Source of the DNA: Spiroplasma phoeniceum P40
GTDB taxonomy: Bacteria; Bacillota_I; Bacilli_A; Mycoplasmatales; Mycoplasmataceae
Assembly (NCBI RefSeq): GCF_003339775.1
Contig: NZ_CP031088.1
Location: 806,001-870,000 of the forward strand
Length of the DNA: 64,000 nt
Direction of reading: 5' to 3'
Shown: positions 3,019-61,859 of the stretch, piece by piece
Numbering within the stretch: position 1 is the stretch's first letter
Layout of the letters: the number at the start of each line of letters is the position of its first letter
Position numbers and translations under genes: made by a program
The notes under the pieces: model-generated
What the model was told of the DNA's origin: nothing
Databases searched by the model: none
The model's input: the letters and a program-made list of their open reading frames with translations, nothing else

Positions 3019-3347
3019 TGTGGTTTCTACACCTAAGAAAACCATTATCTCAGGTAAAATATTTGTTATACCTTCTTTAACTTTTCATAATGCACTAGTC
3101 AAACCAGTTCAAATCCCAGCCATACCCTCAGTCATAGTTTTAGGTGTAGGTGCTTTTAAAAAAATTAAACGCTGTTGTTAAATACATACCTAACATTATT
3201 TTTTATCCTCCTTTCTTTCAATTTCTTTTTTTTTCTTTTTTTCTTTCCTCGAATTTGTTTAATTTTTTGATAAATTGATAAACCAATCCAAGCAAAAATC
3301 CCCAATATAATAACAACACTAAATATTGTCGTTAATCAAGTTGGCAT
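3019..3347 (-). pseudogene. Truncated SpV1 membrane and coat genes
   Basis: The MPTWLTT start at 3345-3347 opens the small membrane protein, followed by a coat protein broken by an extra A in a run near 3160. The coat gene loses its C-terminal membrane segment where the virus left-end sequence begins at about 3019. It is a second diverged copy of 2304-2702. Confidence 0.6.
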
Positions 3348-3456
3348 AATATATTTCCTTTCAAAATTTTTAAATATCGCGTCACGCTATGCGTGTTCGC
3401 TACGCTCAAAATAAACATTATTGAATAAATTACCGCTAATAAATTACGCGGATAAT

Positions 3457-3570
3457 TTATTCATTTTCTTTTACATTATTAATTACTATTTTATTTACAG
3501 TATTAATAACAATATCTTTTCCATACTTAATTACTAAGGACCACAAAATAAAATAATGTTTTCTTGCCAT
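3457..3570 (-). CDS. Small SpV1 protein, 37 aa
   Basis: This is a complete small frame (MARKHYFILWSLV, then KYGKDIVINTVNKI) with a GGAG ribosome site 9 bases upstream. It is the best-preserved version of an ORF that also occurs at 2833-2945 and 54992-55101. It has no recognised domain. Its repeated retention next to the coat genes suggests it is a real virus gene, but its role is unknown. Confidence 0.5.
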   Translation of the reverse strand: MARKHYFILWSLVIKYGKDIVINTVNKIVINNVKENE

Positions 3571-12914: not shown

Positions 12915-14321
12915 ATGAATAATGAAATAGATTTTAAAGAATTAAATAAACAACCCGAATATTTAAATTATTTGGAAAAAGGAAAATACCCAATATTATC
13001 AGAACAAAAATATTATATTGATATTCCTTGAATTATTGCTAATAGAAAAGCAGCTCCATTAACTATTGGACAAGGTCTAATGTTTAATTGTGATAATGAT
13101 GATACACAAGATTGAATAGAAGAATGATACGAAAAAAACTATGTTTATTCTAAATTATTTCAAAATGAATTAGCAAATAGTTTATATGGGCGTAGTGTAA
13201 TGTATTTATTAAAAACAGAAACTGATGATTTAACTATTGATGTTGCACCTATTGGTTCAAGTGTTCGTATTGCTAAATATTCAGAAATAGAACAATATGC
13301 AGAAATGTGAATATTACCTGCTCAATCTGATTATATGTGATATCAAAAAGTACAATTTTATCCAAGAAAAGCAAAAATAACTTATTATACTGCAAAAGAT
13401 TTAGAAATTGGTATTTGACAAACTTATGGTGAATTAGAAAGTAAATTAAGACCAGTTTCTATAATGGAATATGATACTGGAATAGATATATTACCTATTG
13501 TTGAATTTACAAATTTACCTAAATTAGTTCAAGGTACAAAAACAACAGCAGATGCTGTGCCCGATTGTTTACCTGTATTTAATTTAATTAAAGATGTACA
13601 AGATAATATTTATTATAAAAGAATTGAAAGAATTATTAATCGTACTCATTTTGTAGGACGAAAAAATACATCTCCACTTGGTGATAATGATAATGGTAAT
13701 GGTGATGAAGAATTAGTACAAGCAGATGCTTTAATTAGTAGTACAGTTCAACAATATGCTATGACTGGTACTACTGGTGTTGGTTTAATTCATGCTCAAC
13801 AAAATTATACTGAAATAACTATTGATAGTGATTATTCTATGAAAATGATATTTAATGGTGCAGGTTATGAATATGATAATTTTTCAGGGAATAATTATAC
13901 AAATAAAACAGAGTCATTAATGAATAATAAATTAGATATTCATACTACTTTACAAAAAAGATCTTTACGATTTCCTAAATTATATCGCTTATTTGATTAT
14001 ATATTTAAGCATTATAAAAAATGAGATAGTTTAGATGATAACAGTCAGAATAATGATAATTTTAGACCTTATACCTTAGAATTTATAGATATATCAATAG
14101 TTAATGAAATTACTCAATCTGAGGTAATTGATAGACAAATAAATAATGGAACTATTACTCATGTTAGAGCAATTCATAAACAAGAAAAAGTAACAAATAA
14201 AAAAGCAAGAATGATGTATGAAGAAATTAAAAAAGAACAAAAAGAACAATTAGATCAAGAAATGAGTTATATTGATGATAATCAAACAAGAGAAGAAGAT
14301 ATTAAAGGAGATATACAATAA
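12915..14321 (+). CDS. Portal protein
   Basis: This 468-aa protein forms the ring at the capsid vertex through which DNA passes. Evidence is size, mixed beta/alpha N-terminal wing with many Trp/Tyr, a long C-terminal helical stretch (KARMMYEEIKKEQKEQ) and location near terminase and capsid. It fits the SPP1 gp6-type portal family. AGAGGTG is the ribosome site. Its stop overlaps the next ATG (TAATG), so the two are coupled. Portal after capsid is a less usual order than portal before scaffold. Confidence 0.8.
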
Positions 14322-17212
14322 TGCAAGTACCTAATATTAATAGTATTTTTAAAAACTTAAATGAAAGAATAATGGATAATAGTGTTAGATCTGATTTAAC
14401 TAAATTAGATATTGATATTAAAAGTAATTATTTCTTTTTTCCATTTATTATTAAAACTGGTTTAGTAAATATTACTGATAAAGGTTTTCAACCTAATAAT
14501 GGAGTACCACAAAACTTTACACAAATGTCACAAATATTTACTGGGAAAGAAGGAATAATAGCACAATGAAAAAATGCTATTAAAATTAGATCTCGTGCTA
14601 TACCTGATATTTGAAATTATGATTTTTTCCAAAATAATAAAGATTGATTTACTTATTCTATTAATGAATTTAAAAATAGTTTAACGGATAAAGTTAGTTA
14701 TTTATATATTACTAGTACCGAAAAAACTTATTTATGAGATGCAACAAAACAAGTTTTTATTAATAAAGATAATCCTGATAATAATTATCCAGTTAATGAT
14801 ATTTGAGAAAAAATTAATAATGAAAATGGTTTTAATGTTTATGTTATGAATTTACAAAAAATTGATAAAGCATTAGATAATTTTGCTATTAAAAGAAAAT
14901 TTAAAGGTGATGCTTATAAATGTCATATTGTTAATATTAATGATACTGTTGAATTTTCTAAATTAGGTGGTGAAGAATATTTTGGCGAATATAATGCTTG
15001 ATATCTTGATCGTACAATTACGATTGAAACTACTTATAATTTTCAAAGAGAAGATTTTTTAAGATTTTATTTAGTTCCTTTACAATCTGATAAAGAAGAT
15101 GTTGATGATAATTTATTAATGTTTATTTCAAATGCTCAACCAAAATATAATGATTTAAATGAATTAGTATATTGAGTTATTACTTTTAGTTATGTTAAAG
15201 ATTATATTAATACTACTGGACAAACTATTCAGCAATTCGTACAATTTTCAGCACCAGGTGAGGGTTATGTAATACCTAAAATAATATGAGATGATTTAGG
15301 TATTCCAAAAGATTATATAATTAATGAGAAATTTACTGGTGATCGAGGTATTAAAAGTATTCAAATTAGTTTATTAGGTAATAATGCTTTTTCAGCACCA
15401 GTTATATTTGGTCGCCCTATTGAAAATTTAGGGAAATGAAATGAAAAAGTATACCCAAGTCGTAGACTATTTATTGAAAGTATTAAAACACCAATTTCAG
15501 ATCCAATTACTAAAAATAGTAAACCTCTTTCTACTTATTATTTGACAAATGCTATACCCGCTATTAATGGTCAATATGATAATTGATTAAAAAGAAAACA
15601 AGGACAAACAAACCAAGAAGTTAAAAAGAATTATGAAGGTTATTTAAATACTGATAGAGATTTAACACAAGCAACTAATCCAAGTAATTTAACAGTTAAA
15701 GATAAGGATTGACTATTTAAGAATAAAGATGTAATAAATATAGAATATGATGTTAGGCCAAATGGGTATTTTAGATATAATAAAAAAACTGGAATTGTTA
15801 ATATTAATCCATCTAAACATTCAAAAGGAACTTTTAAAGATATGTTAAATTTATTTTCAATAATGAATAATCATATTATTAGTTTGCCAATAGATATAAA
15901 TGAAAGTGTTGTTTGAACACAAAGAGATATACCCGTTATTGGTAAATTTTTAAATGCAATAACTTTTGGAATACCTATTTATTGAAAAATTATAGATACA
16001 AACACTAATTTAAATTACCCTAATATTAAAACTGGTATTCCTTTATTTATAGGTAAATCAAATTATACATTTTATGATGAAAGTTATTGACCTAGTGTTA
16101 TTATTGACAATAAAGAAACATCAAAAAATCAGGGTAATATACCACTTGATGTTTTTAGATATAATACGCAAGATGAGGTTAATGATATTATTAATGCATC
16201 ATCAAGCAACACAAGTATGGCATTTACTTTAACAGATAAAATAAAATTACATAAATATAATAAAGAAAATGGTACAAGTTTAGGTTATCAAAATGTATCA
16301 AGTATTTATTTAGGTCAATATGATTATGAAGATAATAATATTGTTTATTTAGCAGATGGTCAATTTGAAGCATTTAGTGCTTTAAGTGAAAACTTTTTAA
16401 CAGATATTAATGGATATACTTATATTATTGATGCTATTGGATTTTATAATATTGGTAAAACTGCTTGCAAAATTTATATGTTTACAGATGATATAGATCA
16501 ATTTGAACCATTTAGTATTATGGATTATCAAATTAGTTTACAAACAACATCTTTATATAATAATTCAGTACGAGATTGATTAACAATATATCCTTTAAGT
16601 TATTTAGATCAATTTATAGATGATAATGTAATACATGAATGACCACAAACTTTTCCACAACCTGAACCTGATTTAAATTTATATCCTATTGAAATTGATT
16701 TAAGCAAATTAACTGTAAATTTAGATATTTATGCAAATATTAATGATCAAGAAGGAAAGGAAAAAACCTATAATGTAGAGTATGAATTATATGATTTTTC
16801 AAAACAAGGTATAAATAATTGACAACAAGTAGTAAAAAATTATCATAGTTTCTATATAACTAATTTAAATACATCATTGCCTAATAATTTAAATGTTTAT
16901 GCAAAAAAATCTAAATCTGATGATATAGTAGATGTAGCAAAAAATGATTTAAGTTTAGCAAATTATATAGTTTTAAATGATATTACAACAGATGGTTATG
17001 CTCCTTTAAATTATTCATTTTATAAAAGTGATAATGTTGCTCGTGTAAAAATATTATGTAAATTATTATTTTATAGAGATGGTGTTAAGTTAAAAGTTAA
17101 ATTTAGTGTAATATTAAATGCTAATATTTATCATAGTGCATTGTTTGGTGATATTTGAGGTTATTTATCTATGGCTACAAATGCCACTACTAAAATTACT
17201 TTAAAAAAATAA
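14321..17212 (+). CDS. Large phage structural protein, 963 aa
   Basis: This is the longest gene of the prophage, open through many TGA (Trp) codons and translationally coupled to portal. The protein is rich in Asn, Tyr and beta-type segments with no membrane helix or enzyme motif I recognise. Its place after portal and its length fit a tail-tube, knob or fibre component of a short-tailed phage. It is too beta-rich to be a tape measure. It may carry the tail tip. Confidence 0.6.
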
Positions 17213-17215
17213 AAA

Positions 17216-17617
17216 AAATGTCTTTTTGTTATTCTTTAACAATTACATTTCCATCTTTATCAATATCTAAACTAGGAGATTTATTTTCTTCTCCATTTCA
17301 ACGATAAACTTTTATCCATGAGTTAGACCAAGGCAATTTAATATTAACATCTGGATTATTATTTATTCTTTTTGATATTTTTATATTATTAGAGTTATCT
17401 TTATATATCATGTAATATCATTTATTATCTACTAATTCATTAAAAGGTTTTTCCTGTTTTGTTATTCATTCTAAAACACCATCGTTTGTTTTTATATTAT
17501 TTTTTTCTTTTAAATCTGCCAATTCTTTTTCAGTATATTGTGCTTTATTACACCCAACTACGCTTGTTGTACTTGTTCCTATTAACAATATTCCCCTAAA
17601 ATACTTAATAATCTTTT
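17216..17617 (-). pseudogene. Phage lipoprotein, frame broken in G tract of signal peptide
   Basis: The ATG at 17617 opens MKRLLSILG, then a GGGG tract shifts the frame to a stop. Restoring one base gives ILLIGTSTTSVVGC, a standard Spiroplasma lipoprotein signal with lipobox Cys, and an open frame to the TAA at about 17231. The mature part has WYYMIYKDN and IKVYRWNGEE then DIDKDGNVIV. This resembles a module in the SpV1 adsorption protein (59941-60150) and the lipoprotein at 61515-61859. A G-tract shift could be phase variation, decay or a sequencing error. Confidence 0.65.
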
Positions 17618-47440: not shown

Positions 47441-47524
47441 AATCCAAAATATACAAGAAATTACAAATAAAGGAGATAAATAACATGAATTTAAAAGATT
47501 TATTAAATGAAATGTTTGATAACT

Positions 47525-48092
47525 ACATACCATGTTGCATATTAACTTCATTTGGAAAATATCAATCATATCAATAACTACCTTCAATTACAACAATTGG
47601 TTCATTAAAAGTGGTAAACATTTCAACTCGATCACCAAATAATTCAAAACAAGTTTTTGCATAAAAAACAAAAGCATCAACGACTTTTCGTGAAAACCAA
47701 CCACCTTTTTGTTGTGCTCAATATGGCATATCAAAATGAAATAAATTAATAATTGGTTTAATATTATTTTTTAACATTTCATTAATTACATTATTGTAAA
47801 ATTCAATTCCTTTTGGATTAACTGTTTTTCCATCAGGAATTAATCTAGTTCATTGAATTGATGTTCGTAATGAATTAAAATTTAACTTCCCTTGCAATTT
47901 TAATATCTTCTTGATAACGATGGTAAAAATCATTCAAACAAGGTTGTTGATTAAAAAACGATATTTTTCTAACTTAAATCAATGATCTCAATTTGATGCA
48001 GATTTTCCATCTTTCAAAGATGCCCCTTCTGTTTGCGGCGCAGAAAAAGCACTACCTAATAAAAAATTTTTTTTAAAATTATACTGTCCCAT
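47525..48092 (-). pseudogene. Second GH1 6-phospho-beta-glucosidase, truncated
   Basis: Start FLLGSAFSAPQTEGASLKDG, then after shifts SLRTSIQWTRLIPDG, INLFHFDMP and FTTFNEP (acid/base Glu intact in NEP). It is cut at about 47525 by phage sequence, so the nucleophile half is missing. It is a different gene from 44002-45480. Confidence 0.85.
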
Positions 48093-48166
48093 TAGAAATC
48101 TCCTCTCTAAAACACTTTTATTATATCTATAGATATAATTATATTTAGAGAATAAACAATAAAACA

Positions 48167-48709
48167 TTATTTAAGTAATTTGGATTTTAATACTAAATAT
48201 TGTTTCCATAATGTTTTTACACGACTATGTTCAAAAATAAAAAGTTTATTTTTAATTAAATGCTTTAAATTATCAATTTCTGTTCAAATTTCATTAACAA
48301 TATCACGACTATATTTTCAAGCAATGCGATTTCGATTAAACTCTTTTAAATCTAAAATTTTATAACTACCATCGGCAAAAACTTTAATGTCTAAATCATA
48401 ATCAATATACTTAATTGTTTTTTGCTCCATAATAAATGGTGATGCAATATTACAATAATAATTTATTCCGGTATCTTTAAGCATACAAATAATATTACTT
48501 CAATTTTTCCGATTAAAAATCCAGATTGCTGGTTCATTTGTTTTTCATTTTCTACCATTCAATTCTGTAACAGTAACATCTTCATTTACTAAAACAATAT
48601 ATTCTTCTTCTAGTAATAAAAAAACTGCTGATTCTCAACTACGGTAAACTGAACCATTATGTTTATAAGCATGTACTAAGACACTATCTCCAACTTGTAA
48701 CGAGTCCAT
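48167..48709 (-). CDS. DUF402-family protein
   Basis: This 180-aa protein is intact with several TGA codons. The N-terminal half is a beta-barrel (SLQVGDSVLVHAYKHNGSVY), and KYIDYDLDIKVFADGSYKIL followed by DLKEFNRN is the family signature with its acidic metal-binding residues. Members are nucleoside di/triphosphatases (YtqI/Ntdp-like) acting on nucleotides. It has its own promoter region and no operon partner. Confidence 0.85.
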
Positions 48710-57301: not shown

Positions 57302-57505
57302 ATGCAAAATGATTGAATTAAATTAAAAGAGTTTTTTATTCATATATTTTTGTTTATAGATAAAACGAATGTTGAAAGTATTACAATGTGGAATTTAACG
57401 CAAAATGAATATTTAACTTTGATATTTGGTGTTTGAATTGTGATTTTGTTTTTAACTTGGTTTTTCTTGTGAATGGTTTTTAAAATAGTTGGGTATTTTA
57501 AATAA
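57302..57505 (+). CDS. SpV1 small membrane protein, 67 aa
   Basis: MQNDWIKLKEFFIHIFLFID, and a second segment IFGVWIVILFLTWFFLWMVF. Its stop overlaps the next ATG. Probably a minor coat or assembly protein. Confidence 0.6.
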
Positions 57506-58518
57506 TGAAAAAGTTTATATTTTTCTTTAAAAACTATTGTTATATTAGTGGTTCAATGTTTTTGTTTAGTTTAATTGATTTATTACTTTGGATAATTTCT
57601 TTGTATTGTGTTGGTTTAGTATTTTGATTGTTGTTTGCTTTGCAGTGTGTTTATTTTGTGTGATGATTGTGAAAAAATATTTTTTATCAGTTAAACGCTT
57701 TTCGGTTAGTAAATTTTGTTTGAGATAATCCGTTATCAGTTATTATTGGAAAGTTAGGGACCGGTAAAACATTACTTTTAACTTATTTGTCGCAAACTAT
57801 GAAATTATTGAAAGATGAAATTTATAGTAATTATCCGTTAGAAGATGATAAAGTTAAAGTTTTAACATTTAAAAATTTAGATTTTACCGATCGAACAAAA
57901 CCGGTTCCCCCAGATGATAGTGTTATTTTATTTGATGAAAGTTATTTGTATATTGATGGAACTAGTCCTCATGATGAGAAAAAAGTTCATAGTGGTAAAA
58001 TACCGTGAATTGTTTTAGCGAGACATTTTGGACATCGTGCGTTGTTTACTGCTCAGCGTGAGGTTATGATTTGAAATAATATTCGCCAGTTAGCAAGTGG
58101 GATTATTATTCCAATTTCATTGAAAAAACCCGTTGATAAAAAAGGATTTAATTTTTTTAATCGTTTTTTTATTATGCGAATTGGGATTTTCCAAGATATA
58201 ACGGATTATGAAATTTGAAAAACAAAATCAGTAGAACGAACAACAGAAGGTAAAAGAGCAAAACATAAGTCAGATGTTGGGTTAGGAATTCGGTTTTTTA
58301 AAATAATTATTCCGCTTGAATTTGCCAATAAGTACGATAGTCAATGGTTAAAGTTTGTGTGTGATTTAAAGAATGATGAAATTATTGATAAAAAATATTA
58401 TTATTGGTCGGAAATTACAAAATTAAGTGTTAAAGAACGATTAGAATTGTTTGATATTGATATTTTGAAAAAGAATTTAAAACCTAAAAAAGAGAAAGGA
58501 AATGGTAAAGATGATTAA
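57505..58518 (+). CDS. Zot-like morphogenesis ATPase (pI-like)
   Basis: This 337-aa protein has N-terminal membrane segments (residues about 10-60), then Walker A GKLGTGKTLL (residue about 84) and Walker B DDSVILFDES. This is the Zot/gpI family that drives extrusion of filamentous phage through the membrane. It overlaps the next gene. Intact with several TGA codons. Confidence 0.88.
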
Positions 58519-59399: not shown

Positions 59400-61499
59400 T
59401 GCGTAAGTCATTATCTTTATTTGCCATATTTATTTTAAGTTTTTTGGGTTTGGTTATTCCATTTATTACTTTAACGGCGTTTAGACCCTTAAATGAGGAG
59501 CATTATACGCTTAAACAAGAGAAATAGTACTAATAAAGGTATTAATGAAACTGATTTTATTAATACAATGTTTTTACGCAGTATTTTTTTTGAAAATTGA
59601 TCGGAAACAAATTATTTTATTAATCCAACTTTAAAAACATCAAAAAAATTATCATTTAATGATAAATGGTATTTGGATTTTTTACAAGATAGTTATTCAA
59701 CTGGTTTTTCTTATGATAAACCTAGTGATAAATTTATGTATTTATATAAAAATTGAGATAATTATGTTAGACAATATAACATTAATGAATTTTTTGATGT
59801 TGATAAAAAACAATTTTTAAGAGAGTTAACAAATTTTGTTTATTCATTTGTAAATAAATATAATTTAACATCAATTTTAAATAAATTAAAAACAAATATA
59901 ACTGATTTTAAATTAGTTAATTTAAATTATGATTTTGATAATTGAAAATTAGTATCAAGTATTTTAGAAGAAGGAAATACTAAAAAATGATATATAGGTA
60001 TCTTTAAAAAAGATAATAGATGAAATATTATAAAATGAAATGGTAATAAAGAATTTTATTCATATTATTATGATAAAATTTATCGTTGAGATGGTGAACG
60101 TCAACCACAAACGCCCCAAATTGATAACAATGGTAATGTTAAGTTTAAAATAGATATTTATAAACAAAAAGTTAAAGATTTTTTAAATAATTATTTAGAT
60201 GTTATTATCCAAGAAAATATTAGAGTTCAACAAGGTGGCAGTTCGGATTATGAAAATCCGAATAAGGTTGGTACAAAGCGGATAATTTTTGATTTTGAAA
60301 CGGTTGACGAGTTGGATGTTAAAAATATTAGAAAATCAATTTATCGGATGATTTTGACTGTTTATGAGGCAAATTTAATTATTTCTGGTAGTTTGGAATT
60401 AAATAATATTAATAATGATGATTTAAGTTTTAATTTTATTTTTATCCGAACGGGAACTGGTGAGGTTTTTAATTTTAATGGTTCAATTTATTCATCATTA
60501 AATAGTAAAGATTTAAAGTATTATTAACAGTTTATCGGTCAGTTTGATTTATCTAAGTTTTTACAGTCGTTTTTTGCAAGTGCTTTGGTTCCAGTGTTTC
60601 AAAATCGTAGTTCGTTTATTGAAAATGGATATATTGATAATTTACAATATGATACTGTTTTAGTTAACTTTTTTGCGTTAAAATTACAAAATTTTAATAA
60701 TATTTTGTTGAGTGAGAATATTAACGATAAATTGCAATTTGATAAATTATTAAATAGTATGTTTAATATTTCACAGAAATTTTATACTAATTATTTACGT
60801 ACGATTTTTGATTTAGAGAATAATACTTATGTTCAAGGTTATAATAAAAAATATGGTTTATTAGTAAATAATGGTTTTAAAATTTAACCACGATATTTTT
60901 ATTTTTCGGATAAATATAAGCAATTAGATATTAAATTATATTCAGCATTTAAAAAACGGTTTTATACGATTAATAATTATGGTAGTGTTTTTAATTATGA
61001 TTTTTCGGTTGCTAATAATTATGATATTAAGTTAAATTCGGGTTATGTTTTTGAAGATGCTTTAAAAGATAAATATGGTTTAAAGTATAAAAAAATTGAA
61101 GAACAAAAAATCGGTTATAATGTTTTTGAATTGCAAGATCAAAAAGAGAATGATATGTACCGATATTATGATTTTAATTTTGGAATTTATAACTGACAAG
61201 AGATTAATAATGGTGGGTTGTTTCCCGATAAACAATGATGACAAGTGCAATATGTAACGCCAGAGGGTTAATGAGATTTTGGTGCTCATATTAAAAGTGC
61301 GGTCATTTGAATTGTTAATACTATTCCGGGAGTTAAACAAGTTAACGAGTTAGCGAGTGGTGTTGGTAAGGTTTTTGAAACAGTATATAGTTTTTTTAGT
61401 CAAATATTTGAGGTATGAAAATTTAATCCAGCATTGTATAGTACAATAACAAATATTTTTTTATTAATTATTTTTATGAAATTTGTGCGATTAATATAA
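59400..61499 (+). pseudogene. SpV1 adsorption protein (pIII-like), one shift and three TAA
   Basis: A signal peptide (SLSLFAIFILSFLGLVIPFI) and a C-terminal membrane anchor (TNIFLLIIFMKFV) bound a protein of about 700 residues, the layout of filamentous-phage adsorption proteins. The frame shifts at about 59524 and is interrupted by TAA at 60525-60527, 60885-60887 and 61269-61271, but otherwise stays open. Residues at 59941-60150 (WKLVSSILEEGNTKKWYIGI, IYRWDGERQPQTPQIDNNGN) form a module also found in two lipoproteins. Probably inactive now. Confidence 0.8.
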
Positions 61500-61525
61500 A
61501 AAGGACTTTGCTAGTCCTTTTATTC
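61497..61525. terminator. Bidirectional terminator
   Basis: AAAAGGACT / AGTCCTTTT hairpin between the adsorption gene and the convergent lipoprotein gene. Confidence 0.75.
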
Positions 61526-61859
61526 TTTTCAATTTGTATTTTACATGTTTTAGGGTTAATTGTTGGAATTTGTGATTCAGTAGGTTCAGCATTACCACTT
61601 CAAAAATAAACTTTATCATAATAATATGAATAAAATTCTTTATTACCATTTCATTTTATAATATTTCATCTATTTTTTTTAAAAGATACCCTATATATCA
61701 TTTTTTAGTATTTCCTTCTTCTAAAATACTTGATACTAATTTTCAATTATTATTTTCTGGTGGTTTTTCTGCTAATTTATCATCATAACAAGCAATTAAG
61801 TTTGTTGTACTTGTTGCGGTTAATCCAATTGCTCCTATTATGCTAAGTCATTTTTTCAT
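61515..61859 (-). pseudogene. SpV1 lipoprotein sharing a module with the adsorption protein
   Basis: Signal IIGAIGLTATSTTNLIAC has a lipobox Cys. After a short linker comes WKLVSSILEEGNTKKWYIG, identical to the adsorption protein at about 59941-60000, then a one-base shift and IIKWNGNKEFYSYYYDK in another frame. A display of the phage's receptor-contact module on the cell surface could block reinfection; this is inference. Confidence 0.65.

Follow-up and report, generated by a model that had tools for sequence, protein, structure and literature searches.

Phages of Spiroplasma belonging to unrelated types encode one variable module twice, once in a virion protein and once in a lipoprotein gene that converges on it from the opposite strand. 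The two copies within a virus are mostly near-identical, whereas those of different viruses differ widely. These matched pairs make superinfection exclusion by the surface copy the best explanation, and the lipoprotein is probably a type-matched exclusion protein that displays the adsorption module of its phage on the host cell.

The module and its decayed genes in the window

The window, the whole stretch of 64,000 nt of Spiroplasma phoeniceum P40 analyzed here, was read with genetic code 4 (Spiroplasma). A prophage related to Spiroplasma phage MaM-2019a, with terminase, portal, large structural protein, and capsid genes, occupies approximately 4-26 kb, and a decayed copy of SpV1, with ORF2, small genes, and ORF1 (PF12461), occupies approximately 55-62 kb. 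SpV1 ORF2 (57505..58518, + strand; phrog_11343, 9e-180) weakly resembles Zot (E 0.029, below the Pfam cut-off). A partial glycosyl hydrolase family 1 gene (47523-48167; profile positions 4-187 of 453), probably a fragment, is also present in the window.

The module copies of the window are decayed: SpV1 ORF1 and both lipoprotein genes are broken. ORF1 is split into an N-terminal piece bearing the module (59493..60527, + strand; PF12461, 9e-92) and a further piece (60585..60887, + strand; PF12461, 1.2e-46, profile positions 391-490), and its genome-scale match contains three TAA. The SpV1 lipoprotein gene (61474..61859, - strand), convergent on ORF1 and with the lipobox IAC, matches NCBIfam LP_plasma NF038029 (6.3e-10, above the cut-off) and phrog_20608 (7.7e-12); its frame shifts after KKWYIG, near 61680. 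The lipoprotein gene of the tailed prophage (17229..17617, - strand) was assigned as a homologue of UXX42206.1 of phage MaM-2019a, by blastp to the lipoproteins of L034 and L035 and by synteny. It has a frameshift inside the signal peptide, and the frame opens only at a downstream TTG (17588). Convergent with it, 3' of the portal gene, is the gene of the large structural protein of 963 aa (14321..17212, + strand), which matches the 1065-1076 aa proteins of MaM-2019a-like phages at approximately 26%.

The initial annotation had proposed a module common to SpV1 ORF1, the SpV1 lipoprotein, and the tailed-prophage lipoprotein. We built a module HMM from repeat-bearing loci and ran it on all open segments of the fetched stretches, the phage records, and the window. 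Built from other loci only, it found all three copies: residues 149-216 of ORF1 (59937..60140, + strand; iE 1.9e-11), the second frame of the SpV1 lipoprotein (iE 1.9e-3), and, as a diverged copy, residues 54-129 of the open segment 17232-17627 (- strand) that holds the prophage lipoprotein (module at 17241..17468, - strand; iE 3.7e-7). The identity of about 20 residues claimed between ORF1 and the SpV1 lipoprotein was confirmed as NWKLVSSILEEGNTKKWYIG, 20 identical residues, and the shared module is larger than had been described. The three modules thus lie where they had been placed, but each lipoprotein is encoded on the minus strand, and none of the three genes is undamaged. The prophage gene at 17216-17617, put forward as the lead exclusion candidate, did not hold that position: it is broken, no virion partner was detected within the same prophage, and among the examples it is the weakest. 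Its product matched the window ORF1 at 41% over 32 aa (blastp, E 5e-4), and its best module match in the whole set was 37%, a weak family resemblance.

At the DNA level, the sequence shared by ORF1 and the SpV1 lipoprotein is an inverted repeat, with left arms within 59938..60106 (+ strand) and right arms within 61583..61750 (- strand). One stretch of 61 nt is 100% identical (59938-59998/61690-61750), and a second of 98 nt is 88% identical (60009-60106/61583-61680).

Convergent pairs in related loci and phage types

Nine of 14 Spiroplasma genomes had PF12461, as against none of 14 used as controls. We fetched 80 stretches, 79 of them distinct because L183 includes L182, which represent the longer matches (ORF1 and siphovirus) rather than all matches, and 24 more surrounding lipoprotein-like genes of the genome to which the window belongs. 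The module is approximately 70-125 aa long. Of the 81 module ORFs that reach 300 aa or more, 77 had a convergent partner, an ORF the size of the lipoprotein that also bears the module, on the opposite strand and within 1.3 kb; four had no partner, and a partner on the same strand was seen in 0 of 81. The distance from the ORF1 stop to the partner was 17-36 nt in 41 of 42 full-length cases and 279 nt in the remaining one. The lipoprotein consists of a signal peptide, a lipobox, a linker, and then the module. By pattern, 57 of 68 partner ORFs have a Met, a signal, and a lipobox that share the frame of the module. The convergent genes of L153 are separated by a terminator-like hairpin (one found, 0.1 expected).

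Inverted repeats of approximately 220-400 bp with 78-99.7% identity were present in most loci, reaching 96-100% in the arms of L110, L123, and L129. The depositors of the GenBank records of SpV1-C74 and SkV1 CR2-3x had marked such repeat pairs, at 1668-1913/3300-3543 in the former (noted as 'inverted', with one arm in ORF1 and the other downstream) and at 4386-4676/6197-6487 in the latter. These correspond to the arms described here, and the downstream copy was given no gene. On the opposite strand, the downstream arm is the lipoprotein gene, unannotated in the records of R8A2B, C74, and SkV1. It is intact and mismatched to ORF1 in R8A2B (L001:3042-3455), broken in frame in C74 (L002, ~3284-3540), and intact and matched in SkV1 (L003:6039-6506), the only one of the three in which it is both. 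The initial annotation had asked whether the module is missing from the ORF1 of other SpV1 isolates; it is present in the ORF1 of R8A2B, C74, and SkV1.

The siphovirus-type prophages have the gene order portal (PF04860), capsid (PF05065), HK97-gp10-like, tape measure, Dit_N (PF16774), tail protein, and module protein. The module protein, of 539-552 aa with the module near its C-terminus, is followed by a small membrane protein and then by the convergent lipoprotein, 533-543 nt away in all nine cases; it matched no Pfam family. Distant siphovirus relatives in G011 and G012 have repeat arms that are 99% and 100% identical. Two of the siphovirus prophages carry a SocA/Panacea antitoxin gene (PF13274; L190:16807-17710, 1e-13, and L193:11686-12592, 7e-22), followed by small ORFs, possibly toxins, that differ between prophages; this toxin-antitoxin slot, swapped between prophages, separates the tail genes from the module protein.

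A third phage type has the module pair at one locus, L038. In this MaM-2019a-like prophage, a segment of 596 aa bears the module at residues 311-425, and a lipoprotein with a module 81% alike lies 31 nt off. The 596-aa protein had no detectable relation to the large structural protein of MaM-2019a-like phages, and the module HMM had no match in the 963-aa structural protein of the window or in its MaM-2019a-like relatives. The lipoprotein at 17 kb of the window, beside the 963-aa protein, occupies the same kind of convergent slot as the L038 pair. In the lipoproteins of MaM-2019a-like phages, variation falls in the module, and the sequence on either side of it is conserved; a virion partner of these lipoproteins was detected only in L038, apart from what may be a second copy in L037. 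MaM-2019a-like phages have a second secreted protein (L034:9133-10137; 334 aa, phrog_28559) beside the lipoprotein, on the same opposite strand.

The exchange between unrelated phages suggested in the initial annotation was borne out, with one module variant common to an SpV1-type ORF1 and a siphovirus protein and a second variant common to a siphovirus and a MaM-2019a-like phage. The modules of the SpV1-type ORF1 L199 of S. phoeniceum and of the G004 siphovirus protein L179, which belongs to a tail operon, are 84% identical over 90 aa. Between siphovirus L037 and tailed phage L038, the virion copy of one and the lipoprotein copy of the other are 82-86% alike, and the two virion copies 72%. 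These comparisons directly support the passage of modules between SpV1, siphovirus, and MaM-2019a-like tailed phages.

The lipoprotein profile had matches in 53 of 148 genomes sampled from the order. Among the matches listed, those covering the whole profile were in Spiroplasma, and most matches outside it covered only the signal-peptide end or the first two thirds. IMG/VR yielded three matches with ORF1, two of them partial, and none with the siphovirus module protein, two lipoproteins, or a DNA pattern. A lone SpV1-type lipoprotein (L055:6146-6625), with a module 91% identical to that of L161 and no ORF1 match listed nearby, was possibly kept without its virus.

For ORF1, only PF12461 ('Spiroplasma phage ORF1-like family') and phrog_14869, both without a listed function, stood out, and no homology to pIII was detected in the Pfam search. 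The alignment shows a hydrophobic N-terminus and C-terminus, and the structure model was poor (pLDDT 40). The lipoprotein model, from 13 sequences, was better (pLDDT 68.5, pTM 0.60, both module ends near 80); compared with the PDB it gave no Z of at least 5, and the best value (3.9, for RimP), like that of a Klebsiella phage tailspike (2.7), was uninformative. Profile searches of the PDB gave only weak LGI1 matches (best E 0.016). Neither Ltp, Llp, nor a solved superinfection-exclusion lipoprotein was among the matches listed there at E up to 1 or in Pfam.

Matching within pairs and variability between viruses

Pair comparison began with 76 pairs, and removal of L182 and of identical modules left 68 distinct pairs. 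Module identity within pairs was at least 0.85 in 52, 0.5-0.85 in 13, and below 0.5 in three; in the middle class, many are siphovirus pairs, for which the range of the HMM extends into gene-specific flanks. A module's own partner was its best match in 59 of the 68. In a set of 45 de-duplicated modules, mean identity was 0.92 within pairs and 0.28 between them, the own partner was best in 45 of 45, and 0 of 100,000 permutations reached this; the set had been chosen by having the repeat, so the high identity comes partly from selection. It was drawn from 63 of 64 repeat pairs (one being too short), minus L002 and L134 (identity below 0.6, with the frame broken or the wrong frame chosen) and minus near-duplicates.

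The hypervariability of ORF1 is concentrated in the module. Comparison of 38 of 39 long ORF1s (703 comparisons) gave 278 pairs with C-terminal flanks more than 93% identical, in which the median module identity was 0.36 and 95% were under 0.5. Both copies have changed together, as indicated by viruses that share modules on diverged flanks: the modules of L151 and L120 are 89% (ORF1) and 93% (lipoprotein) identical on ORF1 flanks of 53-57%, and those of L150 and L132 are 88% in both genes on ORF1 flanks of 58-59%.

In the module core of 53 of the 64 repeat pairs, 48 of 2,779 codons differed between the copies, 38 nonsynonymously and 10 synonymously, which is about the neutral expectation. Synonymous divergence between copies is approximately as low as nonsynonymous divergence, which argues that the copies are equalized by DNA exchange. 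Matched proteins on diverged DNA, which protein-level selection for identity would give, were looked for and not seen; synonymous sites were equally alike. That exchange across the repeat does happen is evident from L157 (490-4819), a recombinant SpV1 copy with a perfect inverted repeat of 1,474 nt in which the ORF1 N-terminal half, the module, and the lipoprotein tail occupy the place of the lipoprotein. The inverted order may persist because direct copies would recombine and delete ORF1.

Matching has exceptions. In R8A2B the lipoprotein is intact, but its module and that of ORF1 are only 45% alike; identity within the pair is 33-52% in L111, L159, and L161; and the arms of C74 are 89% alike, yet the lipoprotein frame is broken in its record. 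Together with coexisting viruses of the same module, these cases indicate that matching is common and not obligatory. Avoidance of the same module within a host, which might be expected if the lipoproteins exclude, was also considered and found no support, same-module pairs numbering 8 of 142 within genomes and 6 of 175 between genomes (backbone at least 93% identical); the comparison is weak, as the identical copies L153/L154, L130/L131, and L113/L114 could be duplications.

Proposed function and its alternatives

The type-matched exclusion that we favor would work as follows. Within the adsorption protein, the module would be what contacts the receptor. Cells that are infected or lysogenic would make the lipoprotein from its own transcription unit, and the lipoprotein, anchored on the surface of the wall-less cell, would occupy the receptor for that module. 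This would prevent viruses of that module from reinfecting the cell and new virions from being lost to the cell that produced them. When the module of the virion protein is replaced, the lipoprotein copy would be converted as well, so that immunity tracks specificity. Surface display of the adsorption module is suggested by the signal and lipobox (57 of 68), by the separate unit on the opposite strand with the hairpin of L153, and by the module being the only part shared with the virion protein. Type-matched exclusion is opposed by the mismatched loci (R8A2B, L111, L159, and L161), the broken frame of C74, the near-neutral differences between copies, the coexistence of same-module viruses in genomes, and the MaM-2019a-like lipoproteins for which no virion partner was detected.

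Llp of phage T5 is a superinfection-exclusion lipoprotein. Ltp of phage TP-J34, a small phage-encoded lipoprotein of the cell surface, acts before phage DNA is established (PMC3952083). The protein described here would be of this kind in size, phage origin, and surface anchoring. Ltp differs in targeting the incoming tape measure protein, and nothing in the sections of that paper drawn on here suggests that it copies the receptor-binding module of its phage (PMC3952083). Another parallel is the immunity of Ff phages (M13/f1), in which pIII from the resident phage saturates TolA, a resident filamentous phage thus offering its own adsorption protein to the receptor (PMC7070036). Here, in contrast, a separate opposite-strand lipoprotein gene carries the variable module only and is kept near-identical through the inverted repeat; tailed phages carry the same device, and ORF1 has no detected homology to pIII. 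Other exclusion proteins are encoded by inoviruses, 2 of 10 tested in Pseudomonas (PMC6813254). In Spiroplasma citri, integration of SVTS2 DNA is reported to accompany resistance to this virus (Sha 1995, cited by PMC8140453). We found no open-licence paper combining SpV1, Spiroplasma, and superinfection, and the sections of PMC2386487 drawn on here hold nothing on the pairing of module and lipoprotein.

The repeat itself raises the question of whether the arrangement serves at the DNA level, with the lipoprotein copy as a second cassette to invert, repair, or diversify ORF1, by phase variation, as a pilE/pilS-like store, or in the manner of diversity-generating retroelements, and with the protein secondary. 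Diversity-generating retroelements of the Bordetella phage type have two near-identical repeats, one within the receptor-binding protein. The likeness lies in the near-identical repeat pair with one copy in a virion protein, ORF1; here, however, the second copy is an inverted, convergent lipoprotein gene, and mismatches between copies are spread over all bases rather than confined to A. The inverted repeats in most loci (approximately 220-400 bp, 78-99.7%) and the exchange seen in the 1,474-nt repeat of L157 speak for such a device, and repeats flanking a segment in the window and related loci are one hallmark of an invertible switch. Frequent inversion, however, would leave about half of the inserts flipped, and no isomer joining a lipoprotein N-terminus to an ORF1 C-terminus was present among the module ORFs, L157 being the only ORF with an ORF1 N-terminus and a lipoprotein tail. 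A store should differ from the expressed copy, whereas the copies are alike, and 57 of 68 partner ORFs retain signal, lipobox, and frame. We regard a primarily DNA-level role as unlikely.

The within-pair identity and surface display would also be accounted for if the modules bound each other, or if the lipoprotein held or helped ORF1 in assembly, so that it aided the same virus, and the coexistence of same-module viruses in genomes fits this. A homophilic receptor would be missing from naive cells, however, and a role in assembly would give no reason to expect the device alongside unrelated virion proteins, as in the siphovirus and L038; we regard this account as rather improbable. Least is to be expected of a neutral by-product, in which a mobile lipoprotein family recombines with phage genes sharing its domain and gene conversion keeps the copies alike without benefit. 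The neutral look of the differences between copies, the 83 related lipoprotein or module matches in the genome, and the exceptions R8A2B and C74 agree with it, but an architecture of fixed spacing and orientation that recurs with two or more unrelated virion proteins, the joint replacement across diverged backbones, and the retention of the lipobox make it very improbable.

Type-matched exclusion by the lipoprotein, if it operates, may extend beyond single virus types. Filamentous, siphovirus, and MaM-2019a-like phages could draw on one pool of exchangeable adhesion modules as a self/non-self barcode, each deploying its module twice, in the virion for entry and in the lipoprotein for closing the cell, with the inverted repeat re-matching immunity when specificity changes. 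On the comparisons above, we give this wider scheme, with the cross-type exclusion that it allows, slightly less than an even chance. Because the module pool crosses virus types, filamentous viruses and tailed phages that share a module could then exclude one another.

The pairs pinpoint the likely specificity part of ORF1, a protein listed without function in Pfam and PHROGs, and bring to light an overlooked gene in the records of R8A2B, C74, and SkV1. They also suggest, through a mechanism open to testing, how integrated viral DNA could make S. citri resistant to a plectrovirus, as was reported long ago. If the proposed function is true, a phage immunity protein would be assignable by sequence to the phage that it excludes, immunity and host specificity would change together by recombination, and mutual exclusion between unrelated viruses would be predictable from sequence.
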